Shown: positions 12,232-63,910 of the stretch, one piece after another
Position numbering within the stretch: the first letter of the stretch is position 1
Layout of the letters: every line of letters starts with the position of its first letter
IMG/VR virus record: IMGVR_UViG_3300045976_000031
Coordinates: 1 to 64,000 of that record
DNA length: 64,000 nucleotides
Direction: 5' to 3' (one strand)
From: a virus
The notes under the pieces: model-generated
What the model was told of the DNA's origin: nothing
The model's input: the letters and a program-made list of their open reading frames with translations, nothing else
Database searches by the model: none
Made by a program: the position numbers and the translations under genes

Positions 12232-12852
12232 ATGGGAGTGCGGTTAAACTACGCATCGAAAAAGTCGCAGCAGGTGATAAGCCAAATCCTCGCTTATCTT
12301 CTCGGTCGACCGCTCGCTGGCGCAACGCATCAACAGATCGCCTCGATGCTGAAGGCCAGCCACGGAACCGCAAACCGCTTCATTCAGTACCTCGTAGGGA
12401 TCAACCAGATTCACGTTGCACGCAAGGCGAAGGCCACGAATAAGGGTCATCTGCCGGCGATTTACAAGCATGGCCCGCGCATCGAGACTCGGTTCTCGGG
12501 GCGCACGACGTACCAGGATTTACCACTTAACTTTTTTGGGAGGAAACGCAACATGAGCAATGTCGCACAAGAGCAACCGAAGCAAATCATGACGGACTGG
12601 TATGACGGTAGCGTGTTCGCGCCGGCATACGTCGGCCCGTTCCAATGCACGATCCTCGATAACCGGCCGGCCGAGGAAACGATGCACATGCGCTGGTGGA
12701 ACGGCGAGCGCTGGTCCTATCCGCTGCAACCCGAGCACGAGGACGGCAAGGGTGGCTTCTACGCGCCGGCCGACGACTACTACGTGAAGGACAGCGACGA
12801 CAGGCCGTCGTTCGCCTGGCGCGGCTTCTGCGAGGACCAGGACGAACTGTAA
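12232..12852 (+). CDS. Two-part protein: HTH-like N-domain and DQDEL-tailed C-domain
   Basis: 206 aa. Residues 1-85 look like a winged-helix domain (ATHQQIASMLKASHGTANRF). A strong ribosome site GGGAGG precedes an in-frame ATG at 12553, so a 99-aa C-terminal product (residues 108-206) is probably also or mainly made. That part is Trp-rich (MRWWNGERWSYPL) and ends DQDEL. Bases around 12225-12570 are less GC-rich than neighbours, suggesting the N-part was acquired. Function unknown. Confidence 0.6.
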   Translation: MGVRLNYASKKSQQVISQILAYLLGRPLAGATHQQIASMLKASHGTANRFIQYLVGINQIHVARKAKATNKGHLPAIYKHGPRIETRFSGRTTYQDLPLNFFGRKRNMSNVAQEQPKQIMTDWYDGSVFAPAYVGPFQCTILDNRPAEETMHMRWWNGERWSYPLQPEHEDGKGGFYAPADDYYVKDSDDRPSFAWRGFCEDQDEL

Positions 12853-12857
12853 TTCGT

Positions 12858-12886
12858 TTGACAGGGAATTTCCTTGTCACTATACT
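12858..12886 (+). promoter_or_regulatory. Rightward promoter with palindromic operator, P4
   Basis: TTGACA (12858-12863), a 17-bp spacer and TATACT (12881-12886). The spacer holds GGG-AATTT-CCTTGTCA, the shared interrupted palindrome. It starts the second half of the rightward block, beginning at 12915. Confidence 0.85.
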
Positions 12887-12914
12887 TTCAACAAATCACC
12901 AACAGGGATTCGAC

Positions 12915-13394
12915 ATGAACAAAAAGAGCGTGAAGGGACTGGCGAACATCGCACAGCTTCTCAACCAGGGCGGCGTTCTCGCCGCAGCACCGGCACCGAA
13001 GCGCGAGCGCCGCGACACGAACGACATCTTCATGCGCACCCGCGAGAAGGTACAAGCTGCAATCCCGCTCGGCGCGAACCTGGACCCGAAGCATTGGGCG
13101 CTGATCGACAACTACCTGAAGGCGGGCATGCGCGAAGCCTACAACGTGGGCCACGCCGACGCCCTGGACCAGAACAGCCAGGTCGAGCGCCTGCTGGACA
13201 AGCAGTACCAGAAGCGCACGGAGGTCACGATGCCGGCCGTCGTCGCGGGCGTGATGGAACAACTCGGCCTGTCGTCGATGGTGCTGGACCTGGCGCTCAT
13301 GGCTACCGTGTTCGACCGCCACAAGATCACGTACACGCTGTCCGACGAGAACGTGATCGAATACACCATGCGCCCGGTCGGAGACGACGCATGA
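12915..13394 (+). CDS. Hypothetical protein, 159 aa
   Basis: First gene behind promoter P4. Basic N-terminus with a hydrophobic segment (GLANIAQLLNQGGVLAAA), then mostly helical. A central charged segment (ALDQNSQVERLLDKQYQKR) could be a coiled coil. I recall no family. Highly expressed position and an AGGG site suggest an abundant early protein. Confidence 0.65.
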   Translation: MNKKSVKGLANIAQLLNQGGVLAAAPAPKRERRDTNDIFMRTREKVQAAIPLGANLDPKHWALIDNYLKAGMREAYNVGHADALDQNSQVERLLDKQYQKRTEVTMPAVVAGVMEQLGLSSMVLDLALMATVFDRHKITYTLSDENVIEYTMRPVGDDA

Positions 13395-13513
13395 ATCCCG
13401 TCACCTGGTTGCTGTCCGCCTGCGCGGTCCTCGGCGTGTGCGCGCTGGTGATCCTGCTGGAACGCGGCATCGACGCAATTTTCGACAACGGAGAAATAGA
13501 TGACATCTACTGA
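13391..13513 (+). CDS. Tiny membrane protein, 40 aa
   Basis: ATGA overlap with the upstream stop. One clear transmembrane helix (WLLSACAVLGVCALVILL) with an acidic C-terminal tail (DNGEIDDIY). The next gene begins inside its last codons. Confidence 0.6.
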   Translation: MNPVTWLLSACAVLGVCALVILLERGIDAIFDNGEIDDIY

Positions 13514-13715
13514 AAAACCGAACGCTGACGAATCCGTCGTGTTCCCGAAGGACCACCTGGGCAACCCGCCTATCGCGTGGATCGTCGAGCCGAAGAAGTC
13601 CGGCGCGCCGTACCTCACGCTGAAGGCCGACGTGGCGATGAAGCGCTACAAAGCCGGCGACCACGTTGCGCCCTACCACACCCAGCGCGAGATCGAGACG
13701 GAGGAAGAACTGTGA
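13500..13715 (+). CDS. Small protein with EEEL C-terminus, 71 aa
   Basis: Starts 14 bp inside the previous gene. Short beta-rich layout (NPPIAWIVEPKKSGAPYLTL) and a terminal acidic run ending TEEEL, one of the shared D/E-E-L tails of this phage. The next gene's GTG lies in the last codons. Confidence 0.6.
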   Translation: MTSTEKPNADESVVFPKDHLGNPPIAWIVEPKKSGAPYLTLKADVAMKRYKAGDHVAPYHTQREIETEEEL

Positions 13716-14704
13716 AAGCCGTGAAGACCATCAAGGCGTTCATCCCGTACGCCATCAACCGCGACTTCGCCGACTGGTGCCGCAAGGCCGTGGCGCGGCC
13801 GGCAGCGGCCCGCAAAGCCGTCGACCTGTTCATCGCGAAGGACCCGGACGACCACGAGTGGAACAGCCTGGGACTGGTCGAGCCGATGGGCGGCGAGGCG
13901 CTGGTGCACGACCTGGACGGCGCGGCCTTCATGCTCATGTACCAGGTTGCCGAGCGCAAGCTGCCGGCGTCGGTGCGCGACGAAGAGGTGCACAAGCGCT
14001 ACACCGAACTGTCGGATCGCGAAGGCCGGCCGCTCAACAAGAAGGAGTTCGCGCAACTGAAGGAGGACGTGGAATCGTCGCTGCTGCCGCAGGCGTTCAT
14101 CGTGCGCAAGTTCATCCCGGTCCTCGTGACCGACGACACGCTGCTGGTGTGCACGTCGAGCGCGTCGCAGTGCGAGAAAATCCTGGCGAAGCTGGTCCGC
14201 CTGGCCGAAGTGCGCAAGGTGAAGTTCGAGATCAGCGGCGGCAGCTATGCGATGTCGCCGGGCGCGTTGCTCGGCCAGATCGCGCGAGACGGCCAGGTGC
14301 AACTCGACGACGATGACGACAACGTGCTGCACGCCGGCACCTCGGCCAAGTTCAAGGGCGAGGACAAGCGGACGATCACGGTGAAGGACCGCGACCTGCA
14401 TTGCGACGAACTCGTGAAGATCACGACGGACACGCAGTACGCGGTGACGGAACTGCGGCTGCACTTGGAGATCAACGGCGGCGAAGGTGTAAGCGAATTC
14501 ACGCTGACCGACAAGATGATCTTCAAGGGTTTCAAGCTGACGGACGTGAGCCTGGCCGGCATCAACAACGACACGGACGATCTGCACGCGACGCACTGGC
14601 TGCTGGCGAAGGAAATGCTGCGCGCGCTGGAAGCTGTCGTCTCGGCACTCGGCGAAGGGGATCACGATGTACCGCCTGCCGACGCCGACGACGAAGAACT
14701 TTAA
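13712..14704 (+). CDS. rdgC: RdgC-like recombination-associated protein
   Basis: 330 aa, GTG start overlapping the previous stop. The middle matches the RdgC family: LVH-LDG then ERKLPASVRDEEVHKRYTEL, a basic lysine-rich helix, and LLPQAFIVRKFIPVLVTDDT followed by a CTSSAS(Q)CEKIL segment. Known RdgC proteins form ring dimers that bind double-stranded DNA and restrain RecA. Length is near that of bacterial RdgC. It ends DDEEL. In a phage it may shield replicating DNA or steer recombination (inference). Confidence 0.8.
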   Translation: MKAVKTIKAFIPYAINRDFADWCRKAVARPAAARKAVDLFIAKDPDDHEWNSLGLVEPMGGEALVHDLDGAAFMLMYQVAERKLPASVRDEEVHKRYTELSDREGRPLNKKEFAQLKEDVESSLLPQAFIVRKFIPVLVTDDTLLVCTSSASQCEKILAKLVRLAEVRKVKFEISGGSYAMSPGALLGQIARDGQVQLDDDDDNVLHAGTSAKFKGEDKRTITVKDRDLHCDELVKITTDTQYAVTELRLHLEINGGEGVSEFTLTDKMIFKGFKLTDVSLAGINNDTDDLHATHWLLAKEMLRALEAVVSALGEGDHDVPPADADDEEL

Positions 14705-14966
14705 CAAGTACCTGGGGAAGAAATTTATGCCGCGAGAAAAAACAGGTCAGGCGCAGGTGAAGGTCCTGGTCGACAGGTTCGTCCGCATGCTGCCCGGCCA
14801 GTCCTTCTTCATTCCTGACGTGACGCGAATGGACGTGGAATTCTTGCGTCGCCCCATCGTGCGCATCGGGTGCGGCATCAAGATCGTAGAAGTCGAACAG
14901 GATGAAATCTACATGTCGCCGGGCGTGCGCATCTGGCGCGAGGAAGGACCGTATGACGAACTCTAA
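14667..14966 (+). CDS. Small protein with YDEL C-terminus, 99 aa
   Basis: Starts within the end of rdgC in another frame. Basic N-terminal half (TTKNFNKYLGKKFMPREK) and beta-like second half (VRIGCGIKIVEVEQDEIYM). Ends PYDEL, a shared acidic-Leu tail. The TATGACGAACTC of that tail contains the next gene's ATG. Function unknown. Confidence 0.55.
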   Translation: MYRLPTPTTKNFNKYLGKKFMPREKTGQAQVKVLVDRFVRMLPGQSFFIPDVTRMDVEFLRRPIVRIGCGIKIVEVEQDEIYMSPGVRIWREEGPYDEL

Positions 14967-15243
14967 GACCACCAGCACGGCGGACATTCCGCGCGGATCG
15001 CAGCCGGTCCCGCGTGAAGTCGGCGACGCGTTCCAGAACTTGTGCGAGGTGTGCCGCGCGAACCGTGTGCCGATGGAAGCCGCGATTCGCCACGCGCTCG
15101 CCTACAAGAACATGTTCCATGACATGCAGGATAATTGGCACGAGGCGCAGGCGGAAATTTGCCGGCGCGGCGACACGATCAAGCGGCAGCGCGAGATCAT
15201 CGCCAACCTCGAACGCCAACTCGGCATCGACGACGAACTGTAA
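14953..15243 (+). CDS. Small helical protein with IDDEL C-terminus, 96 aa
   Basis: Overlaps the previous gene by 14 bp. N-terminal flexible segment, then helices with two Cys (NLCEVCRANRVPMEAA) and a C-terminal basic heptad region (KRQREIIANLERQLG) predicting a coiled coil. Ends GIDDEL. Family not recognised. Confidence 0.6.
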   Translation: MTNSKTTSTADIPRGSQPVPREVGDAFQNLCEVCRANRVPMEAAIRHALAYKNMFHDMQDNWHEAQAEICRRGDTIKRQREIIANLERQLGIDDEL

Positions 15244-15250
15244 ATCCGAC

Positions 15251-16039: not shown

Positions 16040-16402
16040 ATGAGCACTACCAACGAAGTAACCGTCGTCGAGCGCATCACGCGCGGGCAGATGATGGGCG
16101 ACATCAACCCTGGCGGCAACGTCGTGCACGCGGCCTGGTTCGTGAAGACCCGCCTGCGCCAGCGCGGCGTGCCGGTGATCGGATCGCTCGGCATCATCGC
16201 GACCGAATGGGGCACGCTGACCATCGAGTTCGAGAAGGGCACGGACCCGGACCTCGGCCAGTACAGCGACGCGTGGGTCTACACCTGGACGGGCAAGCCG
16301 GTGCCGGCCGACATCGACCTCGTGCTGTATGCGCGCGAAGGCAAGGCGCTGGTGATGGACGAGCCGCTGGCCGCCCTGCTGACCGTCGACGAAGAACTGT
16401 GA
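16040..16402 (+). CDS. Paralogue A of tandem EWG/YTWTGKPVP proteins
   Basis: 120 aa. Shares with the next gene the pattern GVPVIGSLGIIATEWGTLTI ... YTWTGKPVP, indicating a recent tandem duplication. Family unknown; beta-rich by appearance. Ends VDEEL. Confidence 0.65.
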   Translation: MSTTNEVTVVERITRGQMMGDINPGGNVVHAAWFVKTRLRQRGVPVIGSLGIIATEWGTLTIEFEKGTDPDLGQYSDAWVYTWTGKPVPADIDLVLYAREGKALVMDEPLAALLTVDEEL

Positions 16403-16413: not shown

Positions 16414-16809
16414 GTGTCAACCAATTTGCAAACCATTACCGCCACCTTCACCCGCGACCAGTTCTCGCGCTTGCCGAAGTCCGAGTTCGCCGGCAACGAC
16501 ACGAAGGCCGGCGAGATCATCGCGGCTGAACTGAAGCGCAAGGGTGTCCCGATCATCGGCCACATCGGCGTGCTCGCCGTCGAATGGGGCAAGCTGACCG
16601 TGGCGCACGAGGAAGGTCTGGACGGCGACGAATGGACCTACACCTGGACGGGCAAGCCGGTGCCGCCCGAATTCGTCACGAAGATGAACTCGCCGAACGG
16701 TGCGCTGGTGCTGGTCTATCCGCTGACGGCCCGCATCTTCGCTCACGAGAACAACCAGGCGATGATGGTCAAGGCGGCCACGGCCACCGCCGACGACGAC
16801 GAACTGTAA
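16414..16809 (+). CDS. Paralogue B of tandem EWG/YTWTGKPVP proteins
   Basis: 131 aa, GTG start with AAAGGAAAT upstream. Shares GVPIIGHIGVLAVEWGKLTV and YTWTGKPVP with paralogue A, but has a different N-terminus (FTRDQFSRLPKSEFAGND) and an extra C-terminal helix. Ends ADDDEL. Divergence of the flanks around a conserved core suggests specialised partners. Confidence 0.65.
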   Translation: MSTNLQTITATFTRDQFSRLPKSEFAGNDTKAGEIIAAELKRKGVPIIGHIGVLAVEWGKLTVAHEEGLDGDEWTYTWTGKPVPPEFVTKMNSPNGALVLVYPLTARIFAHENNQAMMVKAATATADDDEL

Positions 16810-17658: not shown

Positions 17659-17952
17659 ATGCACTACCTCGAAAAACCGAAGCTGCGCGAGTGCGAATTG
17701 CGGCGCGAGGAAGTGCTGGAAGCCGAGGCCGGCGCTACCGCGTTTGTCGGCACCGCAATGGCAATGAAGATCGCAGGCGAAGAGGTGATCGTGACCGGCC
17801 GCAATATCGCCTCGCTGCTGATCGTGTTCAATTACGTTGAGGCGAAGCACGCGAAGGGGAACGCGAACGCGATGAAAACCCTGCGCACCGACGCCTGCCC
17901 CGAAGTAGCAATCATGTCGAAGAACAGCCTGACGTTCGACGACGAACTCTGA
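17659..17952 (+). CDS. Small protein with FDDEL C-terminus, 97 aa
   Basis: Starts one base after the previous stop. Central helix with an Ala/Met-rich surface (VGTAMAMKIAGEEVIV) and a hydrophobic segment (NIASLLIVFNYVEA). Ends SLTFDDEL, one of the shared acidic-Leu tails. Family not recognised. Confidence 0.6.
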   Translation: MHYLEKPKLRECELRREEVLEAEAGATAFVGTAMAMKIAGEEVIVTGRNIASLLIVFNYVEAKHAKGNANAMKTLRTDACPEVAIMSKNSLTFDDEL

Positions 17953-45577: not shown

Positions 45578-45931
45578 TTACAGTTCTTCGTCCTTACCGT
45601 CAGCCTTGGCCTTCTCGGTCTTCGCTGCGGCTTTGGACTGCACCTTCGCGGCCGGCGCGCCACCATCCGGCGAGGTCGCGGCACCCAGCGGGGCCGGCGT
45701 CGAGGCGTTCGGGTTGGCGTCGGTGTCGCCGAGATTCTGGATGCCGCCCACCGGGCCGTTGTCCAGGTCGGTGATCGACTCGTTGATCGGCTGGCGCAGG
45801 GCGTTCTTGTTGATGCCCTGGATTTCCTTCATCTCGTCGGCGGTGAAGTTGAACTTGTCCTTCGCCTTGACGACGATGCGCTGGCCGTCGCGGTGCAGGA
45901 TGATCTTTTGGGTTGCGATACGAATTGGCAT
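45578..45931 (-). CDS. Head-associated protein, FI-like, with DEEL tail
   Basis: 117 aa. The N-terminal 55 residues (KIILHRDGQRIVVKAKDKFN) form a small beta domain of a type seen between major capsid and head-tail genes. The remaining 60 residues are Ala/Pro/Asp-rich and probably disordered, ending ADGKDEEL. Position is that of lambda FI (packaging accessory). The end belongs to the shared acidic-Leu tail set. Confidence 0.65.
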   Translation of the reverse strand: MPIRIATQKIILHRDGQRIVVKAKDKFNFTADEMKEIQGINKNALRQPINESITDLDNGPVGGIQNLGDTDANPNASTPAPLGAATSPDGGAPAAKVQSKAAAKTEKAKADGKDEEL

Positions 45932-52922: not shown

Positions 52923-53526
52923 CGTCGTCCTCGTGTTTCGGTGCGCCGCCGCGCGCGGCAAACACTGCATCCTCCGCTTGCTCGATCACCTGCGGATTCG
53001 TCGGTGCCTTGCTGAATTCCTCCTTCACTGCGCGGTACAGTTCTTCCAGCATGCCGTCGCCCAGCGACTTCACCAGGTGGCGTTGCCGGTCGGTGAGTTC
53101 GGCCTGGCGGTCCACCGCGTCGGCCATCAGGCGGATGCTCATCTTCACCATCTTCATCAGGCCGCCGATCACCTCGACCACGCGCGTCGTCGGCCACAGG
53201 TTGCCTTCGCGCTGCTCGTATTCCTGGCGCGAGCGCAGGCCGGCCCAAAACTCTTTCGTCAGGTGCTTCGGCAGATCGTTGTGGTGCATCCGCTTAATGT
53301 ATTCCTCGATCTCGTACGCCGGCTTCACGAGATAGGGTGCTACCTCGTGCACCTGGTAGATGTTCACGCCGTTGCGTTCGCCGCTCGGCTTGCATCCGCC
53401 CTTTTCCAGCTTCTCGACCAGGACGCGGTGATCCATGCGAAACAGGTTGCCGAGTTGCGACAGGTTCGCGCCGTCGTACAGGATCGCGCGTGTGGTGTCG
53501 TCGGTTGCGTCAGTTCTTTTTGCCAT
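52912..53526 (-). CDS. Terminase small subunit, DUF1441-like
   Basis: 204 aa. N-terminal HTH-type domain (GANLSQLGNLFRMDHRVLVE, then GERNGVNIYQVHEVAPYLVK) and a helical oligomerisation part, typical of DUF1441/Nu1-like small terminases that read the packaging site. Ends HEDDDEL. The GATGAACTTTAA of this tail contains the large-subunit ATG. DEL tail shared with other proteins. Confidence 0.8.
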   Translation of the reverse strand: MAKRTDATDDTTRAILYDGANLSQLGNLFRMDHRVLVEKLEKGGCKPSGERNGVNIYQVHEVAPYLVKPAYEIEEYIKRMHHNDLPKHLTKEFWAGLRSRQEYEQREGNLWPTTRVVEVIGGLMKMVKMSIRLMADAVDRQAELTDRQRHLVKSLGDGMLEELYRAVKEEFSKAPTNPQVIEQAEDAVFAARGGAPKHEDDDEL

Positions 53527-53800: not shown

Positions 53801-55747
53801 TCAAAGTTCGTCGTAGCAGTCGGACCCAGGACCGCATGGGCCGCCTGCGTCGCCGCAGTTCGGACAGCACTCGTGCGGCAGCAGGAATTCGTCGGGCACA
53901 TCCAACTCGTCGACTTCGACCAGGTTGCCGGCCTCGCTGCACACCGCCCATTCGCCGAGCGTCATCTGCGCGTAGCTGTCGCTCTCGGGATGGTAGTACC
54001 AGCGCTTCACGTCGTCGACGATCTCGTCTTCCAGCTTCACCTCGTCGCTCATCTTCGTGTCGGCCAGGATTTCGACAACCTGGTCCCAATCCGCGTCTTC
54101 TGGCTGCACCTTCTTCCGACCCTTCAGCAGCTTGCGCAGCTTCGTCCGCATGCGCTTCATGAGGCGGAACAGCATGTCCTGCGCGTCTTCCTTCGCGGTG
54201 AGCGCCTGCACCACGGCCTCGTCGAGCGTGTCGCGGCACACCAGCAGATAGACCAGCACGCGGTGCTTCTGACCCTGGCGTGCGAGGCGGCCGATGAACT
54301 GAAGGTACAGTTCGAGCGACCAGGGGATGTCGTAGAACACGATGATGTGCCCGCCCTTTTGCAGATTGAGGCCGTGCCCGCCCGACGCCGGGTGCATCGC
54401 CAGGATCGGTATCTTCCCGGCGTTCCACGGCTTCACGCATTTACCCTCGGCGTCCATGAAGGTGATCTTGGTGCCGAATGCCTTCTTCAGCCGGTCTTTC
54501 GATGCGCGGTGGTGGTAGCCGACCAGGATGTTCCGGCCCTGCGACTCTTCGATGATCTGCTTCAGTTCCTCCAACTTGTGCGTGTGAATCTGGTGAATCT
54601 TCTGAATTTTGACGTGATCGTCCTCGTCGGTTTCACCGGGTTCCAGCTTCGTCTCGTACAGCACGCCGGACGCCATTTGCAGCAGCTTCGCCGACAGCGC
54701 CGCAGCCGTCTCGGCCTCGATCTCGCTGCCATCGTCGAGCGTGACCACCATGTCGGCTTCCATCTTGCGGTACAGGGCCATCTGCTCGGGCGACATCGTG
54801 ACGTGGCGCGTGACGAACAGCGGCGGCGTGCGCGGCAGGTAGTCCTCTTCCTTCATGACCAGGCAGATGTCGCTGATCTTCGCCAGGATCGCCGGCTCCG
54901 CGCCAGGCCGCAGCTTCCACTTCCGCGTGTAGCGGTTTTCGGTGAAGAACTCTTCGCGGAACCTGGTGATCTCTTTGCCGAAGCGCTTGCCGCCGTCGAT
55001 CAGGTAAATCTGCGCGAACAGGTGCAGGTAGCTCTCGGCGGCCGGCGTCGCGGTCAGGATGTGCATGCGCGTGATGAAGCCCGGCTGATCGCGCACGGCC
55101 TGCAACGCCTTGAAGCGGGCCGCGTTGTGATCTTTGAAGCCGCTGGACTCGTCGATGATGACGGTCCTGTACGGCCATTTCAGCTTGCGCACGCGGTAGT
55201 AGGCCACGAGCCATTCGACCCAATCGCGCGAGATCAGGTGCACGCTCGCCTTGCTCAACGTCGCGGCCTCGCGGATGTCCTCGCGCATCTGCGCCGCAGC
55301 GCGCGTGCCGGCCGCCTGCGCTTCCTTCTCGATCTCCGACTTGAACATGCGCAGGTTGGCGCATTCGGCGCGGCGCGCACGGATCGCGTCGCGGCTGGCG
55401 GCCTTCACGCGCGGATCATCGTCGTCGACGTGGATGATCGAGAGGTTCAGGTGGGCCAGGTGGTTCCACTTCCTGAATTCGTCCGGCCAGGTCTGCGTGG
55501 CGACGCGCAGCGGGCCGATCACGAGCACCGGGTTGTCGTCGACGAACTCGGCCACCAGGTCGGCGATGAGCGTGGCCGTGGTGACGGTTTTGCCGAGGCC
55601 CATGTCGATGAAGAGGCCCGAGAATGGGTTCTCCTTCAGGAACTTCAGGCCGGTGTTCTGGTATCCGTGCATCTGCTCGCGGTACAGTTCCACGTCCGCG
55701 AACTTCGCGCGGATGCGCCGCAAAAAATGGTCTGCTACTACGCTCAT
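53801..55747 (-). CDS. SNF2-type DEAD/DEAH helicase with C-terminal Cys cluster
   Basis: 648 aa. Motif I GLFIDMGLGKT (44-54), motif II DESS (200-203, replacing DEAH), motif III TATPA (233-237) and motif VI QFIGRLARQGQ (484-494) define an SF2/SNF2 helicase. Residues 626-645 hold CCPNC ... C ... C, a zinc-like tail, then CYDEL. Overlaps the VRR nuclease start by ATGA. Probably remodels or unwinds replication intermediates. Confidence 0.85.
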   Translation of the reverse strand: MSVVADHFLRRIRAKFADVELYREQMHGYQNTGLKFLKENPFSGLFIDMGLGKTVTTATLIADLVAEFVDDNPVLVIGPLRVATQTWPDEFRKWNHLAHLNLSIIHVDDDDPRVKAASRDAIRARRAECANLRMFKSEIEKEAQAAGTRAAAQMREDIREAATLSKASVHLISRDWVEWLVAYYRVRKLKWPYRTVIIDESSGFKDHNAARFKALQAVRDQPGFITRMHILTATPAAESYLHLFAQIYLIDGGKRFGKEITRFREEFFTENRYTRKWKLRPGAEPAILAKISDICLVMKEEDYLPRTPPLFVTRHVTMSPEQMALYRKMEADMVVTLDDGSEIEAETAAALSAKLLQMASGVLYETKLEPGETDEDDHVKIQKIHQIHTHKLEELKQIIEESQGRNILVGYHHRASKDRLKKAFGTKITFMDAEGKCVKPWNAGKIPILAMHPASGGHGLNLQKGGHIIVFYDIPWSLELYLQFIGRLARQGQKHRVLVYLLVCRDTLDEAVVQALTAKEDAQDMLFRLMKRMRTKLRKLLKGRKKVQPEDADWDQVVEILADTKMSDEVKLEDEIVDDVKRWYYHPESDSYAQMTLGEWAVCSEAGNLVEVDELDVPDEFLLPHECCPNCGDAGGPCGPGSDCYDEL

Positions 55748-56043
55748 TTCATCAACTCCTTAAACTGGTCCAGGTCGTCCAGGACGTGCACTTCCGCGCC
55801 GTGCTCGCGCATTTCCCTGATCCTGCGGACCTGGATCGCGGACAGGCCGCTCTCGCCGCGACCTGGCCTCTTCCACTCGATCCACACCACCCGGCCGCGC
55901 CGGATGTAGCAGCGATCCGGCAGGCCGTTGAAGGTCGGCGATTCGACCTTGAACGTGAACCAGCCGCGCTTCTCCGCGTACTTGTGAGCCTTGCTGGTGT
56001 TATCGCTTTCCAGCGCCGGCTTCACGTCAAATATCTTCACCAT
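55744..56043 (-). CDS. VRR-NUC domain nuclease
   Basis: 99 aa, start ATG at 56043 behind AGAGG. A compact PD-(D/E)XK-like VRR-NUC: SPTFNGLPDRCYIRRG, VVWIEWKRPGRGESGLSAIQ and a C-terminal VHVLDDLDQF. In such proteins the acidic, Glu and Lys of the EWK motif form the active site. Lies between polymerase and helicase genes; Holliday-junction or flap resolution is known for relatives. Confidence 0.85.
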   Translation of the reverse strand: MVKIFDVKPALESDNTSKAHKYAEKRGWFTFKVESPTFNGLPDRCYIRRGRVVWIEWKRPGRGESGLSAIQVRRIREMREHGAEVHVLDDLDQFKELMK

Positions 56044-58222
56044 CGTCGTCATCCTCTGCATACGGTCGTTCTTCGCGACAGGTCTTGCACATGCGCGTGT
56101 CGTGGCCCGCTTCGTCCAGGGTTTGCCAGTTCTCGCGCACCTTCTTCTCGGCCTTGCCGCACAGTGCCGTGCGTGTCGCCATGTCGACGACGTGCGCGGT
56201 CTTCTGGCCCGGCAGCACCAACGTGCGATAGCCGAAGTTTTCCAGCTTCGGGTTCTTGGTGCGCAGGCCGATGTCGTCCAGGCGCGCGTACGCCTCGCGC
56301 ACATACCAGTCGTAGTCGATGTCGTCCGGGAAGGACTCAGGCAGGTTCATGCAGGGCACAGCGCCGGTCGTGCCGGCCACGCGCGCGCCGTTCTGCTTCG
56401 CGATGAACCCGCGTTCGCCTTCGCCGTGATACCAGCGCACCATCTTGCCCAGGTACTCGCCATCCTTCAGGCCGCCTTCCTTCTGCGTGCCGTCCGGCAG
56501 CGTGCATTTGCCCACCTGCTTGACGCCGATGAACTGCGTGAAGTCGCGGCACTTGCGGATCGTCTCTTCGATGTCCGCGCCGGTCAGCAGGTAGTCGACC
56601 ACGGCCTGCGAACAGATGTCGAAGGTCGGGTCGTGCTTCGCTTGCAGGCCGGCCTTCGCGAACAGTCCCTTGCGCTTCACTTCCGGCTGCAACACGCCGG
56701 TTTTGTCCGGGATCATGAGCACCTGGCCTGGCTCCTTCGGGTCCTCGACGATGGCGAGGTAGCTGTTCACGTCGCGGCTGTACACGCCCAGGTAGCGCAC
56801 GGCCTCGGTGGTGAAGCCGGTGTCCATTTCCCAATCCGCGACGATGCACGCGAACATGCCGTAGCGCTCGCGCGGGATCACGGTCACGATGCCGTCCGTG
56901 TTGGCCGAGATGACGTTGAAGCCGTTCAGGTGCAGTTCCTCGATCAGCATCAGCAGGGACAGTTGCCCGGTCAGCGTGGTCGAGATCAGCAGGCGCGGCG
57001 AGTAGACGATGGAGTACGGCGAGCCGGTCTTGCCGAACGTGCCGTTGTTGACGATCTTGAAGGAGTCCGAGCGCTTCTTGTACTTCATCGACTCGGACGG
57101 GTTGGACTTCTTCAGGCGCGCGGCCTGCTCTTTGTACTGGTCGCGCAGTTCGACGAAGCGCGTGAAGATCGGCACGAACTGCTTGCCCACGGCCTGCGGC
57201 ACGTATCCGCAACCCAGGATCAGGCGCGGGTAATAGGCGCGCACGTCGCGGTCTTCGATGATCGTGTTCTCGTCGGCCACGAAGGACCGGCGCTTCTCTT
57301 TCGAGTGCAGGCCGCCGATGCCGATCTTGTAGTCGGTGCCGCCGATGCGCAGGCGCTCGTTCAGGTCTTTGATGGTCTGCGGCAGCTTCACGACGCCGTA
57401 CGATTTCTTGTCGTCCGGGTTCTCGGCCGAGACGAAGAATCTGGTGGCCTCGATCTGCGCCAGCACGTCGCGCAGCAGCGGCGTCTTGAACTTGATGAAG
57501 TGCGGCGTCTCGTACTTGAACGAGAAGGTCTTGACGGTCGGCTTTTCCGGCTTGTAGCCGGTGATCTTCTCGACCTCGCGGCCGATCAGGGTTTCCGCGA
57601 TCTGCGCGTCGGACTTCGAGCGCACGTCGACGCCGTACTCGACGCTGATCTCGTTGCGGATGTCGATTTCTTCGCGCAGGCGCAGGGCCAGTTCGCCGGT
57701 CGTGTCCAGGTCGTTGCCCAGGTACTTGCGCATGAGCGGCCGGCGCGCGGCACCGATCAATTCGGACGGGTCGATGGGGAGTTCCTGCAACCAGGGCATG
57801 TTCATTCGCGCGCCGTACTTCTTCAGCGACAGCTTCACGCCGGGCGCGACTTCCATGAGGTCGATGTGGTCCAGGTAATCGGGAAGCTGGCAGTGGTAGC
57901 GGTCCAGGAACTTCCACAGCGGCAGGCGGTATTTGAAGATCGCGTCGTTCGCTTCCTTCAGCTTCTCGTTGCTCGCGCCGGCCATCGCGAGCGCGATCAT
58001 CATGAGGTCGTAGCCGAGGCCGTTGAACGTGTACAGGCGGAAGCCGCGCATGATTTTCGCGATCTTGCGGCGGTCCAGGTCCAGGCCGTCATACTTTTCC
58101 AGGATGACCTTTTTGCCGGTTTCCAGGTTCTTGAATCCGATGCTCCAATAATCGCGGTAGCACTCGGTATCGCACGCGGCCTCGGGCCGTTTGTCGAGGA
58201 AGGTTTTGATGGATATGGGCAT
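56027..58222 (-). CDS. Family B-type DNA polymerase
   Basis: 731 aa starting at 58222 (weak AGAG). N-terminal DnaQ-like proofreading: ACDTECYRDYWSIGF (DxE at 18-20), TFNGLGYD (65-72), YLGND (167-171). Palm: GIGGLHS then DVRAYYPRLI (326-335, motif A), KIVNNGTFGKTG (389-400, motif B) and NTDGI (441-445, motif C, TD pair). C-terminus is acidic and Cys-rich (CKTCREERP). Replicative polymerase, shorter than T4-type PolB. Confidence 0.85.
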   Translation of the reverse strand: MPISIKTFLDKRPEAACDTECYRDYWSIGFKNLETGKKVILEKYDGLDLDRRKIAKIMRGFRLYTFNGLGYDLMMIALAMAGASNEKLKEANDAIFKYRLPLWKFLDRYHCQLPDYLDHIDLMEVAPGVKLSLKKYGARMNMPWLQELPIDPSELIGAARRPLMRKYLGNDLDTTGELALRLREEIDIRNEISVEYGVDVRSKSDAQIAETLIGREVEKITGYKPEKPTVKTFSFKYETPHFIKFKTPLLRDVLAQIEATRFFVSAENPDDKKSYGVVKLPQTIKDLNERLRIGGTDYKIGIGGLHSKEKRRSFVADENTIIEDRDVRAYYPRLILGCGYVPQAVGKQFVPIFTRFVELRDQYKEQAARLKKSNPSESMKYKKRSDSFKIVNNGTFGKTGSPYSIVYSPRLLISTTLTGQLSLLMLIEELHLNGFNVISANTDGIVTVIPRERYGMFACIVADWEMDTGFTTEAVRYLGVYSRDVNSYLAIVEDPKEPGQVLMIPDKTGVLQPEVKRKGLFAKAGLQAKHDPTFDICSQAVVDYLLTGADIEETIRKCRDFTQFIGVKQVGKCTLPDGTQKEGGLKDGEYLGKMVRWYHGEGERGFIAKQNGARVAGTTGAVPCMNLPESFPDDIDYDWYVREAYARLDDIGLRTKNPKLENFGYRTLVLPGQKTAHVVDMATRTALCGKAEKKVRENWQTLDEAGHDTRMCKTCREERPYAEDDDDGEDI

Positions 58223-58286: not shown

Positions 58287-58910
58287 TTACAGGTCGTCGT
58301 CGTCTTCGTCTTCGGCTTCCTCGACATCCCATGCGCCGGAATCGTCGATGCGGCCCTGGCCGAATGCCTTGTCGTCCTTCACGAACATCGCGCCGACCAG
58401 GCCGGCGTTCAGTCGCTTACCGTGCTCGTTGTTCTGAACCCACGGACGAATCAGCATGTGGCCCCATGCGCCACCGTAGAACATGTCGAGGATTTGTTGC
58501 AGGTCCTCGACCGGATCGAGCTTCACGCCTTTCTTGTCGCGGAGCGTCGGGCGGTTGGTTTCGCGCGCACTGAGGAACCAGTGGCCCGCGTAGGTGTTGT
58601 CGACATCGCTGTCGTCATCATCGTCGCGGTTTGCGTCGCCGTCGCGCAGGAACTTCTTGTCGGCCGGGACGGTGATCTTGGCTTCCGCCAGGATCGCCTT
58701 CATGACCTTCGCGATTGCGGTCTTCGCTTCTTCGTGGGTTTCCTTCGGCATGAGGCCCACCAGGCCGTACTTCGCCACGCCCTTGTCGCTTTCCTTCTTC
58801 CACGGCTTGTCGACGTGAGGGTAGGAGAAGCGCACGTTGTCCACGCGGATCACGCCTTCGTTGTAGATCACATAGTTCTTGCCGCGCTCTTTGACAGTCA
58901 GTTGTGCCAT
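58287..58910 (-). CDS. DUF2815-type ssDNA-binding-like protein
   Basis: 207 aa. KNYVIYNEGVIRVDNVRFSY start, KYGLVGLMPKETH and GGAWGHMLIRPWVQNNEHGK are typical of DUF2815, thought to be phage single-strand DNA-binding proteins. The C-terminus is extremely acidic (EEAEDEDDDDL), like the tails of true SSBs, which contact replication partners. Paired with DUF2800 as in many phages. Confidence 0.8.
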   Translation of the reverse strand: MAQLTVKERGKNYVIYNEGVIRVDNVRFSYPHVDKPWKKESDKGVAKYGLVGLMPKETHEEAKTAIAKVMKAILAEAKITVPADKKFLRDGDANRDDDDDSDVDNTYAGHWFLSARETNRPTLRDKKGVKLDPVEDLQQILDMFYGGAWGHMLIRPWVQNNEHGKRLNAGLVGAMFVKDDKAFGQGRIDDSGAWDVEEAEDEDDDDL

Positions 58911-58952: not shown

Positions 58953-60251
58953 TCACTCGCTAAATTCGTTAAAAGCGTCGTCGTATTTCACGGCCAGGGC
59001 AGGCCGCGAATCCTTTATCGACGCCAGGGTTGCCTTGCCCGGTGGTTTGAAGATCAGGCCATCCAGCAGTTCCGGGATGTCCTTTTTCTTGTAGCCCTCG
59101 GCCATCAACAACTCTTCGACCCTTGCAGGACTCGCTACCTCTTCAGTAACGATGTCGTCCCGGTCCAGGCCCAAAGCGACCAATCTTTCGACCGCCTTGT
59201 TCTTGTCGCGGAAGGTGCGGAATGAACGCCCTTCCACGGTCTTGTGCAGCTTCAGCTTCACACCGTCGCGTGCACGTTGTTCGAGTTCTTCGCCCACCTT
59301 TTTGAAGAACCGCTCGACGGTGCCGCGCCAGCCGTACAGCCGTTCGAGTTCCAGCGTCGTCAGCTTCGCCGGATCGACGGGCGACGGCACCAGGTCCTCG
59401 GCCAGCGCCTCGCGGAAGCCGGCAATCTCTTCTGCCGTTACCTCCGGGGCCAGGTCGTCGAACGCACCGCCAGTCAGGTCGATCAGGACCTTCGCCTTCG
59501 CGGCGCACGTCGACTGCACGCGGCACCACTGGCAGGCTTCGGCGCTCGGCGTACGCGGTGCGTTCTGCACCCACGCTGCCGCAGCACGTTCCTTCACGTA
59601 TTCGGCGAACTTCAGCAGATACGCCCGATCCACCACCCATTCCTCGAACACGTCGAGGCGCGGTTGCGCGATACGGATCACGAATTCCTGGAAGTCGTAC
59701 AGCCAATCCCATTCGTAAAAAAAGCCAAGCGCGTAAAGCAACGCCTGGCTGTTCTCTTTCGCGTAGACCCGGACGCCCTTGCCCATCTTCAGGTCGGTGA
59801 TGACCATGCGCTGATACGTGCATGCGCAGTGGTCAGCGGTGCCGCCCTGGTTCGGGATCGGCGTCAAGCGGGAGAAGTCGACGCGCGTTTCGACGTAGTG
59901 ATCGCCGGGCAGGTTCTTGCACCAGTCGACGTACCGCTTCACGTACTCGAACATCGCCTCGTCGATGTCGATCAGGTAGCCCCATTCGCCTGCTTGCACG
60001 AACTCGCGACGGCCCAGCAAATACTTCGGGCGCATACCTGTCTTCAGCCACTCTTCGCCTACCATGTGGCCCACCGTTCCGTAGGCCGCATCTCGGCCGG
60101 AATCATCCGGCGCGAACAGATTGGGAATCAGCGATCCCGCGCAACCGAGCCACATCTTCGATCCCGATGGTGAGAAAACGGAGTGTCCGCCGTCCATCAC
60201 CCGCTGGATCGCAGCGCGCATTTCTGCGACGCTGAATGTGTGCTCGGTCAT
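58953..60251 (-). CDS. DUF2800 RecB-like nuclease
   Basis: 432 aa. FSPSGSKMWLGCAGSLIPN at the start, GTADHCACTYQRMVITDLKM then GKGVRVYAKENSQALLYALG form the PD-(D/E)XK core (D of GTAD, D-x-K of TDLK), and a CQWCRVQSTC cluster resembles Cas4/AddB-type iron-sulphur motifs. Typical partner of DUF2815, and probably a recombination exonuclease. Confidence 0.85.
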   Translation of the reverse strand: MTEHTFSVAEMRAAIQRVMDGGHSVFSPSGSKMWLGCAGSLIPNLFAPDDSGRDAAYGTVGHMVGEEWLKTGMRPKYLLGRREFVQAGEWGYLIDIDEAMFEYVKRYVDWCKNLPGDHYVETRVDFSRLTPIPNQGGTADHCACTYQRMVITDLKMGKGVRVYAKENSQALLYALGFFYEWDWLYDFQEFVIRIAQPRLDVFEEWVVDRAYLLKFAEYVKERAAAAWVQNAPRTPSAEACQWCRVQSTCAAKAKVLIDLTGGAFDDLAPEVTAEEIAGFREALAEDLVPSPVDPAKLTTLELERLYGWRGTVERFFKKVGEELEQRARDGVKLKLHKTVEGRSFRTFRDKNKAVERLVALGLDRDDIVTEEVASPARVEELLMAEGYKKKDIPELLDGLIFKPPGKATLASIKDSRPALAVKYDDAFNEFSE

Positions 60252-60257
60252 GCCGGA

Positions 60258-60650
60258 TTACAGGCCGTCGTCGTCGCCGTTGTCGTCGTCGCCGGTCGTG
60301 GCTTCCAGCTTCGACTTCGCCAGGGTGAACGCGGTGCCGATCTTGTCGTCCGCGATCTCGGCCATCTTCGCAGCGCCGACCTTCGTGATGATGGCCTTCG
60401 CTTCAGCGGCACCGAACTTCTCTTTCACTTCGGTCAGGGCGGCGACCATCTCTTCGCGGGACGGGCCGGTCTTCTCGGCGGTCTTGTTGGCTTTGCCCTT
60501 GCCGGTGCCGGTGGTCTTGCCTGCGGCGGTGCCGGTCGTTTCAGCGGCGGTGCCGGTCGATGCGGTCGACACGGAGCCGGCAGCGCCCAGGGCGGCGATC
60601 AGCGCTTTGATGTTGGTGTTCAGTTCGGTCAGTTGTGCGTCGAAAGACAT
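60258..60650 (-). CDS. Acidic-tailed small protein, DDDGL end, 130 aa
   Basis: Started at 60650 (GGAG upstream). N-terminal helix (FDAQLTELNTNIKALIAALG), a Thr/Ala/Gly-rich linker (about 25-60), then a helical domain (REEMVAALTEVKEKFGAAEA) and an acidic Gly/Asp tail ending GDDDGL. May be an accessory DNA-replication protein given its place at the head of the module. Confidence 0.65.
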   Translation of the reverse strand: MSFDAQLTELNTNIKALIAALGAAGSVSTASTGTAAETTGTAAGKTTGTGKGKANKTAEKTGPSREEMVAALTEVKEKFGAAEAKAIITKVGAAKMAEIADDKIGTAFTLAKSKLEATTGDDDNGDDDGL

Positions 60651-60726: not shown

Positions 60727-60912
60727 TCACGAATTCAGGTCCTTCAGCACTTCGTCCATTGCAGCAACCAGGCGCATGAGGCGATCCCGCTTTTCCGGGT
60801 TCGTCACGAACTCCAATCTCTCGGCGATCACGCCGCGCACGAACTGCAAATGCTCCGCATCGCGCTTACGTCGCTGAATTCCGAAACTGGTGTTGTCGTA
60901 TTCCGCTGCCAC
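60727..60912 (-). CDS. Small helical protein, 61 aa, GTG start
   Basis: A start at GTG 60912 fits AAGGTGA seven bases upstream better than the ATG at 60957. Helical, charged (QRRKRDAEHLQFVRGVIAER, then KRDRLMRLVAAMDEVLKDL). First gene of the leftward replication module, transcribed divergently from the regulator gene. Confidence 0.55.
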   Translation of the reverse strand: MAAEYDNTSFGIQRRKRDAEHLQFVRGVIAERLEFVTNPEKRDRLMRLVAAMDEVLKDLNS

Positions 60913-61031
60913 CGTGTCACCTTGTTGTCGATCAGTGCATGACCAGCATCTTCTCACGCCGATTTGCGACTCGTCAATAGGGTGTGCGATAATTTGTTCA
61001 CTTTTTTGATGTTTGATAGGAGGTCGACGAG
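60913..61031. promoter_or_regulatory. Divergent promoter region of replication genes
   Basis: Rightward: TTGCGA (60964-60969), 18-bp spacer, GATAAT (60988-60993). Leftward: a TTGACG box (60977-60972) without a convincing -10. The two overlap, so firing may be mutually exclusive. It lacks the TTGACAGGG/CCTTGTCA operator. Strong AGGAGG precedes the regulator ATG at 61032. Confidence 0.55.
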
Positions 61032-61343
61032 ATGATTACCTTTCCGGCGTGGGTCGAAAACCCGCGCGATCCCGAATTGAGCGCCGCCGACATGGACGCG
61101 CAACTGGCCCAGCGCCGATTGCGATACATGGTCGGCCTCGCGGCGCTTCACGCAACACCGAACACCAGCATCGCAGCGCTCGCAGATCATTGCGAGATCG
61201 AGCGCGCGCACGTACACGCGGCCATACGCGAAGGTCGTTTTTCGGCGCAGATCGCGGCGAAGATCGAGCGCGCGTGCGGCCGGCAGACCGTGCGCCGCGA
61301 GTGGCTGATCTATCCCCTTGAAATTCACGAACTGGCGCATTGA
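61032..61343 (+). CDS. Small DNA-binding regulator, YdaS/Cro-like
   Basis: 103 aa behind AGGAGG. A Cro/YdaS-type helix-turn-helix is suggested by NTSIAALADHCEIERAHVHA then AIREGRFSAQIAAKIERACG and RREWLIYPLE, the arrangement of phage and plasmid antirepressor/antitoxin-type regulators. Coupled by overlap to the PrimPol-helicase gene. A good candidate to bind the shared operators. Confidence 0.7.
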   Translation: MITFPAWVENPRDPELSAADMDAQLAQRRLRYMVGLAALHATPNTSIAALADHCEIERAHVHAAIREGRFSAQIAAKIERACGRQTVRREWLIYPLEIHELAH

Positions 61344-63910
61344 TGAACGACGAATACACACCGAAGAACAGCGGCCCACTCGCTTATCTCGGTGCCCGGC
61401 TGATCGACAACGGGTACAGCATCATTCCCATCGCGGTCGGCAAAAAAGCACCAGGATTCGACAATTGGAGTAGCGCGCGGTCGACCAAGGCGCAGCTTCA
61501 AGAGTGGATCGAGTCAGGACATCGCCATTCCGGCGTCGGCATCCTGACGAAACGGAATCCGACCGTCGACATCGACGTTCGGAACGAAGAAATCGCGCTC
61601 GAAGCGGAGGCAAAAGCGCGCGAGATTTTCGGTGATGGGCCAGTTCGCATCGGCATGCCGCCGAAGCGGTTGATGCTGTTCCGCACCGACACGCCATTCC
61701 GCAAAATGCGGTCGGCCAAGTACCAGGATGAATGGGGCGATCTGCACCAGATTGAAATCCTGTGCGACGGCCAGCAGTTCGTGGCGTACCACACCCACCC
61801 GGACACCGGAAAACCGTACACCTGGCCGGCCGAAAAGCTGGATAAGGACGGATCGACCATCGCCGAGGGTGGGCCGCTGACAATTCCGCAGAACGACCTG
61901 ATCGACATCACCGTCGAACAGTGCCAGGCGTTCATCGACTGGTTCGAGAAGCGCGCCGCGCAGGAATCCGATTGGAAGATCGTGAAGAAGCGCCGCGATC
62001 CGGGCACGTCGGAGGTCGACCTGGACAACCCGTTCATGGAAGACACCAACGCGGTCGACATCACCGAGGAAGAACTGCGCGGCCGGCTCATGATGGTGCC
62101 GAACCCGGACGATTACGACACATGGGTCCAGGTCGGCATGGCGCTGCACCATCAATTCGACGGTGCCGACGAAGGCATGGACCTCTGGAACGAGTGGTCC
62201 GAGACTGCCGACAACTACGACCGCGATGCGCTCGAACGTCGGTGGAAGGACTTCGCCATCGACGGGAAAAAACGTGCACCGATCACCGCGCGATACATCC
62301 TGCGGCTGTCGAAAGAAGCGGCGGCCGAGACTTCCGCAGCGCTGACGATGAAGCTGCGCGATGGATTCGCGAACGCGAAGGACGTGGCCGACTGGAACAA
62401 GGCCCGCGACGCAGCGCGCGAAGCGGAGATCGACGGCCTGGCGCGCGCGGCGCTGGCATCGCTCGCGAAGGATCGCCTCGACGTAATCACCGCCAGCAAA
62501 ACGCCGCTGTCCGAGGTGAAGAAAGCCATCGCCTACCAGCCGGCGAAAGGTGAGAAGACGCCAGGGTGGGCCGAGACGTGGGTGTACGACACGAGCGACG
62601 ACCGTTTCTTCGACACGAAGCGGAAAATCTCGACCACGCAGCAGGGTTTCAACGCGATGTACGACCGGAAGGCGCTGACGAAAAAGGACGTGCTCGATGG
62701 ACGCAGTTCGCCGACCAACACCGCATCGGCGCTCGCGCTGAACCAGTTCAAGATCACGGTCGTGAACGGTCGCCGATATGAGCCTGGCGCGGACCCGATC
62801 TTCCATCGCGCGGACGGCGTGTTCGCCAACACCTACCCCGAGCACGAGATTCCCGATCTGCCGGATGAACTGCTGCCGCGTGACAAAAAGGCGATCCGCC
62901 GCGTGAAGGATCACGTTCGTCACCTGCTGGCGAAGCCGGAAGAACGCCGCATCCTGGTCGACTGGTTGTCGTGGGTGGTCCAGAATCCGGGCAAGCATGT
63001 GAATTGGGCGATCCTGTTGCAAGGCGTCGAAGGTGACGGCAAGTCGTTCTTCGGATTCCTCATGCGCGCGGTGATGGGTGTGTCGAACGTCCAGATGCTC
63101 AATGCGCACATCCTGGAATCGCCGTTCACCGATTGGGTCGTCGGCCAGTGCCTCACCTGCATCGAAGAAGTGCGCCTCATCAAAGCGACCAACAAGTTTG
63201 AGTTGCTGAACCGGATCAAGCCGTTCATCACGAACCGGATCATCGAAGTGCACCCGAAGGGCAAGCCGACGTACGACGCGATGAACACCACGAGCTACCT
63301 GTTGTTCTCGAACTACCGCGATGCGCTGCCGCTGGACGACGACGGCCGGCGATACTGCGTGCTGTTCTCGCAGTGGCAGCGGAAGGACAAGCTGGATGCG
63401 TTCAAGCGCGATAACCCGGACTACTACGAGAAGTTGTACGCGACCATCGAAGAGTGCGCGCCGGCCCTGCGGAAGTGGTTGCTGGAACACGAGCAAGCCG
63501 AGGACTTCAAGCCGATGGGCGATGCCCCGGACACCGACGCGAAGAAGTACATGATCCGCCAGGCGCAGCCCGAGTTCATCCAGAACCTCTTCGACATCAT
63601 CGCGGAAGGCGACGAACCGCTGATCTCGTACGACCTGATCGACGGGAACCGCCTGTCCGAAGTGCTCATGGATCGCGGATTCGACGTTCCGGGCAACAAG
63701 GCGGTCGGCGCGATGCTGGCGCGCTACCGCTTCGAGTGCCTGGGTCGTGTCAAAGTCGGCAGCGATTCGCACACCTACTACACCCGCGAGACTGAGAAAT
63801 GGCAGTACCGGACGACCGAAGGCGAGGTCCACGTCGACACCGACGCTGTGCGGACTTTCGTGAAAGCGGCGAAGGCGAAGATGGCGAAGGACGACGACGA
63901 TGAACTCTGA
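61343..63910 (+). CDS. PrimPol-PriCT-SF3 helicase (DUF5906 type)
   Basis: 855 aa from the ATG at 61343 overlapping the regulator's stop. Residues 10-170: PrimPol domain (YLGARLIDNGYSIIPIAVGK, catalytic VDIDVR 75-80). About 242-330: PriCT_2-type (RLMMVPNPDDYDTW, DEGMDLWNEWS). About 555-640: helicase with Walker A GVEGDGKS and Walker B LTCIEEV, and a sensor-like YLLFSNYRDALPLDDDGRR. Ends KDDDDEL. Makes primers and unwinds DNA for the polymerase. Confidence 0.88.
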   Translation: MNDEYTPKNSGPLAYLGARLIDNGYSIIPIAVGKKAPGFDNWSSARSTKAQLQEWIESGHRHSGVGILTKRNPTVDIDVRNEEIALEAEAKAREIFGDGPVRIGMPPKRLMLFRTDTPFRKMRSAKYQDEWGDLHQIEILCDGQQFVAYHTHPDTGKPYTWPAEKLDKDGSTIAEGGPLTIPQNDLIDITVEQCQAFIDWFEKRAAQESDWKIVKKRRDPGTSEVDLDNPFMEDTNAVDITEEELRGRLMMVPNPDDYDTWVQVGMALHHQFDGADEGMDLWNEWSETADNYDRDALERRWKDFAIDGKKRAPITARYILRLSKEAAAETSAALTMKLRDGFANAKDVADWNKARDAAREAEIDGLARAALASLAKDRLDVITASKTPLSEVKKAIAYQPAKGEKTPGWAETWVYDTSDDRFFDTKRKISTTQQGFNAMYDRKALTKKDVLDGRSSPTNTASALALNQFKITVVNGRRYEPGADPIFHRADGVFANTYPEHEIPDLPDELLPRDKKAIRRVKDHVRHLLAKPEERRILVDWLSWVVQNPGKHVNWAILLQGVEGDGKSFFGFLMRAVMGVSNVQMLNAHILESPFTDWVVGQCLTCIEEVRLIKATNKFELLNRIKPFITNRIIEVHPKGKPTYDAMNTTSYLLFSNYRDALPLDDDGRRYCVLFSQWQRKDKLDAFKRDNPDYYEKLYATIEECAPALRKWLLEHEQAEDFKPMGDAPDTDAKKYMIRQAQPEFIQNLFDIIAEGDEPLISYDLIDGNRLSEVLMDRGFDVPGNKAVGAMLARYRFECLGRVKVGSDSHTYYTRETEKWQYRTTEGEVHVDTDAVRTFVKAAKAKMAKDDDDEL

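Follow-up and report, generated by a model that had tools for sequence, protein, structure and literature searches.

Unrelated proteins of a Casjensviridae phage share a lineage-specific acidic C-terminal tail, a putative docking peptide

Acidic C-terminal tails ending in a hydrophobic residue are known from the replisome of bacteriophage T7, where both the SSB gp2.5 (ending DGDF) and the primase-helicase gp4 (ending DTDF) carry a disordered tail of the form D-x-D-F that mediates docking within the replisome, and where the gp4 tails bind basic patches on the A-family DNA polymerase gp5 (PMC12593628). In bacteria, the acidic tip of SSB (DDDIPF), which also ends in a hydrophobic residue, recruits many genome-maintenance proteins; there one protein carries the tip and many partners read it, whereas in the phages studied here many proteins carry the tip. 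For the ORF6 (DUF2815) SSB of phage Enc34 (PDB 5ODJ/5ODL), an orthologue of the SSB described below, the acidic tail reaches into a groove of a neighbouring molecule in the crystal, and its removal changes DNA binding (PMC5686142); that study appears to discuss only the SSB tail, although other Enc34 proteins end the same way (DEV). Short peptides at the extreme C-terminus with lineage- or class-specific last residues are also read as PDZ ligands, by TPR domains (EEVD) or by ClpX (ssrA), but no such reader domain was found in the phages studied here. In the phage analyzed below and its relatives, about 10-15 proteins per phage carry a tail, including terminase and early proteins, which is many more than the two of T7. 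No mention of such a system was found in the literature searched, which was open-access and leaves out most subscription journals.

Tailed proteins in the 64-kb window

To examine a sequence-only reading according to which twelve unrelated proteins end in [DE]EL, a window of 64,000 nucleotides (positions 1 to 64,000 of IMG/VR record IMGVR_UViG_3300045976_000031) was analyzed. The observation was confirmed, as all twelve C-termini were found at the stated stops with the codons described. Of 640 ORFs of 30 aa or more in all six frames, exactly these 12 end in EL, and all 12 are [DE]EL. Among 79 called genes the rate is 12/79, against about 0.08 expected from an internal [DE]EL rate of 0.0010 per position (binomial p = 5e-23), and no [DE]EL occurs elsewhere in the last 33 residues of the 79 proteins. 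GAACTNTRA was found 12 times on both strands, always at a gene end.

Eight carriers are encoded on the plus strand in the 12.2-18 kb block. These are an unknown early protein (12232-12852, ...EDQDEL; the start is uncertain, 12232 or 12553, and relatives are about 218 aa), a 71-aa unknown protein (13500-13715, ...ETEEEL, kept in genomes G003-G005), RdgC (13712-14704, PF04381, ...ADDEEL), which is tailed in 17 of 17 panel phages, a 99-aa unknown protein (14667-14966, phrog_7200, ...GPYDEL) overlapping the RdgC 3' end, and unknown proteins of 96 aa (14953-15243, ...GIDDEL), 120 aa (16040-16402, ...TVDEEL), 131 aa (16414-16809, ...ADDDEL) and 97 aa (17659-17952, ...TFDDEL). The 120-aa and 131-aa proteins are tandem paralogues, which fall in one BLAST family and both match phrog_31589, so that the designation of the twelve as unrelated is almost right and 11 families are involved. 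On the minus strand, the tail is carried by a DUF7443 head-region protein (45578-45931, PF24227, ...GKDEEL), which had been called FI-like, by the terminase small subunit (52912-53526, phrog_141, ...EDDDEL) and by an SNF2-type helicase (53801-55747, PF00176, ...DCYDEL). The product ending at 63910 on the plus strand is the primase-polymerase (PrimPol; Prim-Pol, PriCT_2, DUF5906), which starts near 61343 and ends ...DDDDEL.

In addition, three minus-strand products end in related tails, namely the Enc34/T7 gp2.5-type SSB (58287-58910, PF10991, ...EDDDDL), a phrog_7721 protein (60258-60650, ...GDDDGL), which is tailed in nearly all relatives, and a PolB-type DNA polymerase (56027-58222, phrog_1252, a weak family-B match) with the tail-like end ...DDGEDI. 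The AlphaFold model of the SSB matched Enc34 SSB and T7 gp2.5 (5odj, E = 2e-21; 1je5, E = 7e-6), whereas its tail was predicted with low confidence (pLDDT 59-67) and gave no information on docking in cis. For the phrog_7721 protein, AlphaFold and Foldseek gave no fold match. Two further proteins lack the tail in the window but carry it in relatives: the DUF2800 exonuclease (58953-60251, minus strand), which ends NEFSE here and is tailed in many relatives, and a DUF7609 protein (6578-6931, plus strand, phrog_6647).

The sequence-only reading had also pointed to the GAA codon, which is used for Glu in all twelve tails. However, internal Glu followed by a CTN Leu codon is GAA in 72 of 72 cases, because GAGCT is 12-fold depleted in the whole window (9 found, 110 expected). 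The fixed codon is therefore explained by GAGCT avoidance and not by a termination signal.

Lineage dialects and concerted switching

The window was assigned to Casjensviridae (Chi-like phages) on the basis of DNA and protein matches to family members and of a conserved core gene set including small and large terminase, portal, Prim-Pol, DUF2800 exonuclease and gp2.5-like SSB; 17 families are shared by all 23 genomes that yielded the core set. Subsequently, we asked whether relatives carry the tail. Two conditions under which the idea would have failed had been named beforehand, and neither was fulfilled: relatives are enriched about 20-fold or more over background, and where the C-terminus of an orthologue has diverged, as in the small terminase, the last residues are kept. 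Acidic-plus-hydrophobic ends number 7-12 in typical relatives against about 0.4 expected, while T7, lambda, N4 and KPP10 show 0, 0, 1 and 1 against 0.2-1.0. PrimPol is tailed in 18 of 23 panel phages and mostly matches the SSB dialect, so that, as in T7, SSB and primase carry the same tail.

[DE]EL itself is not the family-wide motif. The general form is an acidic stretch followed by a lineage-specific terminal L, V, I, M or F, with F found only in JC01-like phages and distant contigs. Across the family, the carriers include SSB, primase-polymerase, RdgC, exonuclease, SNF2 helicase, small terminase, DUF7443 and orphan early proteins. Each lineage has its own dialect, as seen with DDDEV (Chi, Enc34), DEI (BUCT551), DDL (SS2019XI) and AAGL (BcepNazgul). 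Tails ending in [DE][DE] plus the terminal residue are 73 L, 2 I and 1 V in L-dialect phages, 33 V, 5 I and 0 L in V-dialect phages, and 10 I with no other residue in BUCT551. BcepNazgul has ten proteins ending GL (expected 0.44, p = 3e-11), three of them PAAGL. The host does not set the dialect, since the Aeromonas phages BUCT551 and 13AC503A use I and L, respectively, and V and M both occur in Providencia phages.

To analyze if non-homologous tails change together, 109 non-redundant genomes were compared. A closest-pair sister test gave too few switches among close pairs to be informative, and path-disjoint contrasts were used instead. Across 13 such contrasts of the SSB terminal residue, other families moved with SSB in 17 contrasts, against it in 0, and stayed unchanged in 10, whereas control pairs without an SSB switch differed in 7 of 59 (Fisher p = 2.5e-6). 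Agreement within genomes is 86% against 48% after shuffling. The concert is nevertheless imperfect, as phiAxp-2 mixes L and M and the genomes G004 and G005 mix L and I, and some contrasts are deep. Tails are gained as appendages already in the local dialect: DUF7609 orthologues end at one conserved point, but the Chi clade adds ...DDDEV and R22L adds EEEIDI (tail EEIDI).

A putative docking peptide and its possible partner

The sequence-only reading had offered three meanings, a docking peptide for one phage or host hub, protection from C-end proteases, or a termination/translation signal, and this interpretation is partly supported. Docking to one hub is well supported by evolutionary evidence, since tails are shared by dozens of non-homologous families, follow phage lineage rather than host and switch their terminal residue in concert. 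We therefore favor, with fair though not full confidence, the view that the tails are short linear motifs of the SSB-tail kind, that is, a flexible acidic stretch with a terminal aliphatic residue whose free carboxylate is probably read. In this view they would dock primase, exonuclease, helicase, RdgC, small terminase and early accessory proteins onto one phage-encoded partner, bringing them to the same site, most likely SSB-coated replicating or recombining phage DNA. Dialects would arise because the pocket and all tails co-evolve, and new genes would join by gaining an appended tail in the local dialect. The analysis itself demonstrates sharing of the tail, selection at the protein level, concerted switching, repeated gain by appendage and dependence on lineage rather than host, whereas physical docking and the existence of a single hub are inferred.

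The identity of the hub is a guess. A column-by-column scan of eight protein families (SSB, Exo, SNF2, TerL, POL, VRR-NUC, PrimPol and TerS) detected no residue that tracks dialect (best p = 0.002 among some 3300 columns), and among the families compared for relative divergence in switching pairs only the SSB core was nominally raised (p = 0.045, uncorrected), which we regard as a hint. The SSB, also a candidate origin of the tail system, is the leading candidate on weak evidence; its core and another conserved phage protein appear about equally possible, with a host factor or several partners only slightly less so.

A hub of the T7 type, the phage DNA polymerase, was suggested by the common SSB fold, the tails on both SSB and primase and the binding of gp4 tails to gp5, but it is largely ruled out as a conserved hub. 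The near-identical phages SS2019XI and L137 share SSB, Exo, SNF2 and PrimPol of 97-100% identity with the same tails but have non-homologous polymerases, PolA in one and PolB in the other (17% identity), and this replacement leaves every other tail unchanged. PolB-type polymerases often carry tail-like ends themselves (EGEDL in L137, DGEDI in the window), the polymerase of the window being taken as a client and not the hub, and polymerase columns do not track dialect. Mimicry of the bacterial SSB tail to bind a host pocket of the RecO, RecQ, chi or PriA type also appears unlikely. Distant relatives end SSB in DDIPF or DDMAF and PrimPol in DDFPF, close to the bacterial tip, but DDIPF was found only in the distant contig L240, no F/P tip is kept within Casjensviridae, and dialects differ between phages of the same host genus.

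A stability code, by which the tail protects from or delivers to a C-end-reading protease or adaptor (ClpXP- or Tsp-like), would fit the C-terminal position, the variety of proteins and the terminal aliphatic residues. It is not excluded but is unlikely, and it does not predict lineage-private dialects. Phages of one host genus differ in dialect, stable and essential proteins such as SSB, TerS and PrimPol carry the tail, BcepNazgul uses AAGL without acidity, and a phage-encoded reader would still be needed. Independent origin of acidic C-termini for solubility or charge, with dialects reflecting shared ancestry only, is improbable as well. Acidic tails are common on DNA-binding phage proteins and orthologues share history, but charge does not specify the last residue, yet L, V, I, F and GL are set per phage across unrelated families, and DUF7609 gained tails in two lineages, each in its own dialect. 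A termination, translation or transcription signal at the DNA or RNA level, to which the exclusive position of GAACTNTRA at gene ends in the window had pointed, is refuted, and the common stop context proposed by the sequence-only reading falls with it. Relatives encode the tails with GAG, TTG, GTN and ATH codons and all three stops, SS2019XI has 10 tails with 10 codon triplets, L007 has GAGCTT in the small terminase, and orthologues replace Leu by Val, Ile, Met or Phe.

A further-reaching possibility, which we hold only tentatively, is a phage-private C-terminal address code in Casjensviridae. One phage-encoded reader would recognize a short lineage-specific peptide (DEL, DDL, DEV, DEI, AAGL and others), and any phage protein, old or newly acquired, would be admitted to the replication, recombination and packaging site by gaining it, so that dialect change would be a barrier to gene exchange between lineages.

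If the docking interpretation is right, the results generalize a two-protein finding in T7 to 45 protein families in the panel, a whole viral family organizes its replication, recombination and packaging proteins by a shared, evolvable C-terminal tag, and a simple rule, the last 3-5 residues matching the phage's own SSB, would predict which orphan phage genes act at the replicating genome. The lineage dialects would then offer a natural system to study the co-evolution of a peptide motif and its reader across dozens of clients, and suggest a molecular barrier to gene swapping between phages.

C-terminal [DE]EL tails in the 64-kb window

To verify the sequence-only reading, in which twelve products were reported to end in exactly [DE]EL with GAA as Glu codon and CTN as Leu codon, the C-termini of all twelve were inspected. 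This observation was exact. The sequence GAACTNTRA occurs 12 times in the window when both strands are considered, and all 12 occurrences are gene ends. Among 79 genes predicted with a codon-usage caller, 12 end in [DE]EL, whereas 0.08 would be expected from the internal rate (p = 5e-23). Two of the twelve, 16040-16402 and 16414-16809, are tandem paralogues, so that eleven unrelated families are represented rather than twelve. When related endings are included (the SSB with DDDDL, the product of 60258-60650 with DDDGL and the polymerase with DGEDI), the window encodes 15 tailed proteins belonging to 14 families. None of 25 genes counted in the virion-gene region between 20 and 53 kb carries a tail, in contrast to 15 of 54 elsewhere; DUF7443 and the small terminase were set aside in this count.

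The record is a 64,412-base IMG/VR virus related to Casjensviridae (Chi, Enc34, phiAxp-2, AH2 and SS2019XI). The tailed proteins include RdgC (PF04381), DUF7443, the small terminase, an SNF2 helicase, an Enc34-type SSB (PF10991) and a Prim-Pol/PriCT_2/DUF5906 primase, in addition to small early proteins of unknown function. One of the tailed genes, 14667-14966, overlaps the 3' end of rdgC by 38 bases in another frame, so that the DNA encoding the RdgC tail also encodes the start of the next tailed protein. The phrog_7721 protein (60258-60650) is predicted to consist of an N-terminal helix, a low-complexity Thr/Lys/Gly linker, a helical domain and the acidic tail, and a fold search against the PDB gave no match.

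Subsequently, we aimed to understand if the conservation acts on the DNA or on the protein. In close relatives the small terminase ends in DDDEL even where the preceding residues differ, in DDDEI in one relative, and in DEDEL with a GAG codon in another, while DUF7443 ends in DEEL, DDDL or DDDI. Across the panel of relatives the tail codons are diverse (10 tails with 10 codon triplets in SS2019XI; GAG six times and GAA four times in BUCT551) and all stop codons are used. The invariant GAA of the window has a different explanation, as Glu preceding a CTN Leu codon is encoded by GAA in 72 of 72 internal cases, because GAGCT was found only 9 times against 110 expected (about 54-110, depending on the model). 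This is part of a strong avoidance of restriction-type sites over positions 1-64000: of 43 six-base palindromes with an expected count of 10 or more, 22 are absent (CCGCGG 0 versus 108 and CACGTG 0 versus 67, counted on both strands), and RGATCY-like words and GGTCTC are also avoided, with relatives differing in degree. The tail is therefore a protein feature and not a termination signal. Since a termination or translation signal was one of the meanings proposed in the sequence-only reading, while docking on one hub was another and is the one we infer below, its interpretation is supported in part.

Lineage-specific dialects of the tail

To analyze how far the tail extends beyond the window, C-termini were compared in 24 genomes or contigs. 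Acidic ends with a terminal L, I, V, M or F typically number 7-12 per phage against about 0.4 expected, while T7, lambda, N4 and KPP10 show none or one. The last residue is set per lineage: V in Chi (iEPS5), Seifer, Enc34 and PatoteraRojo, I in BUCT551, and L in the window clade, phiAxp-2, FoX4, SS2019XI and Smarc1. Tails ending in [DE][DE] plus a last residue comprise 73 L, 2 I and 1 V in L-dialect phages, 33 V, 5 I and no L in V-dialect phages, and 10 I and nothing else in BUCT551. BcepNazgul, which at first seemed to lack tails, has ten proteins ending in GL (0.44 expected, p = 3e-11), three of which end in PAAGL, demonstrating that the motif is not merely acidity. Deposited annotation agreed with the gene ends used. 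Two Aeromonas phages use I and L, respectively, and Providencia phages use V and M, so the host does not set the dialect.

Further variants of the tail were detected. In the phages L052-L054 (Carli), L049-L051 and L250 (R22L type) and L273, the shared motif seems to be longer, with D-L-x-[DG]-L or D-I-x-[DG]-[IL] on SSB, PrimPol and TerS. In distant contigs (L225-L227, L230 and L240), SSB and primase end in matching Phe tails (DDMAF with DDFPF, PVDEF with DDSTF), and one SSB ends in DDIPF, which is close to the bacterial SSB tip. In SNF2 orthologues of V-dialect phages (e.g. L060) the helicase ends in WDDEE or DDEDD, which is acidic but without the terminal aliphatic residue, as if the tail were lost or masked.

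Concerted switching and gain of tails

To test if the tails of unrelated proteins change together, orthologues of SSB, exonuclease, phrog_7721, PrimPol, SNF2, TerS, DUF7443 and RdgC were read in 78 further IMG/VR contigs and then in 178 in all. Within-genome agreement of the last residue was 86%, against 48% when shuffled. Since shared ancestry inflates such a number, path-disjoint contrasts were taken on a core-gene tree of 109 non-redundant genomes. In 13 independent contrasts in which the SSB residue differs, the other families moved with it in 17 contrasts, against it in none, and stayed in 10; ten contrasts had net agreement and none had net disagreement. In control pairs without an SSB switch 7 of 59 differ (Fisher p = 2.5e-6). 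These contrasts rest on a greedy choice of pairs and on one tree, and a third of the family contrasts did not move. The clearest case is BUCT551 (I) compared to its L relative L265, in which Exo, phrog_7721, PrimPol, TerS and SNF2 all change with SSB.

Tails are gained as appendages. The DUF7609 protein (6578-6931 in the window) ends at the same conserved position in most phages, but the Chi clade appends ...DDDEV and R22L appends EEEIDI, each in its own dialect. In all, 45 families in the panel carry a [DE][DE][LIV] end in at least one phage.

Inferred role of the tails

T7 supplies the model for how the tails most likely work. Its SSB gp2.5 ends in EADEDGDF and its primase-helicase gp4 ends in WSNDTDF, and gp4 tails bind basic patches on the polymerase gp5 (PMC12593628). 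The SSB of the window is predicted to have the Enc34/T7 gp2.5 fold, and the tail of the Enc34 SSB lies in the groove of a neighbour in the crystal and affects DNA selectivity (PMC5686142). Acidic C-terminal docking tails are already known for SSBs and T7, whereas a family-wide, lineage-coded set on many unrelated proteins was not found in the literature searched.

In contrast to T7, the polymerase is not the inferred partner of the tails. SS2019XI (L008/L030) and contig L137 have 97-100% identical SSB, exonuclease, SNF2 and primase with the same tails, but carry non-homologous polymerases (17% identity) at the same locus between SSB and VRR-NUC (L137:10675-12699), a clean polymerase replacement. 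The SS2019XI enzyme is family A by Pfam, while the L137 enzyme belongs to the other, weakly PolB-like group and itself ends in EGEDL. A search for the reader by covariation did not reveal one. SSB is the only core that diverges slightly faster in switching pairs (p = 0.045, uncorrected), and it is also the most constantly tailed protein (69 of 72 genomes), but on present evidence this does not identify the hub. Mixed dialects exist (L and M in phiAxp-2, L and I in the panel genomes G004 and G005), which suggests a tolerant pocket.

While the sharing of the tails, their dialects, their joint switching and their gain by appendage are shown by the sequence comparisons, physical interaction and the existence of a single partner are inferred. 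Taken together, we infer that the tails dock client proteins of these phages onto one phage-encoded partner at SSB-coated DNA.
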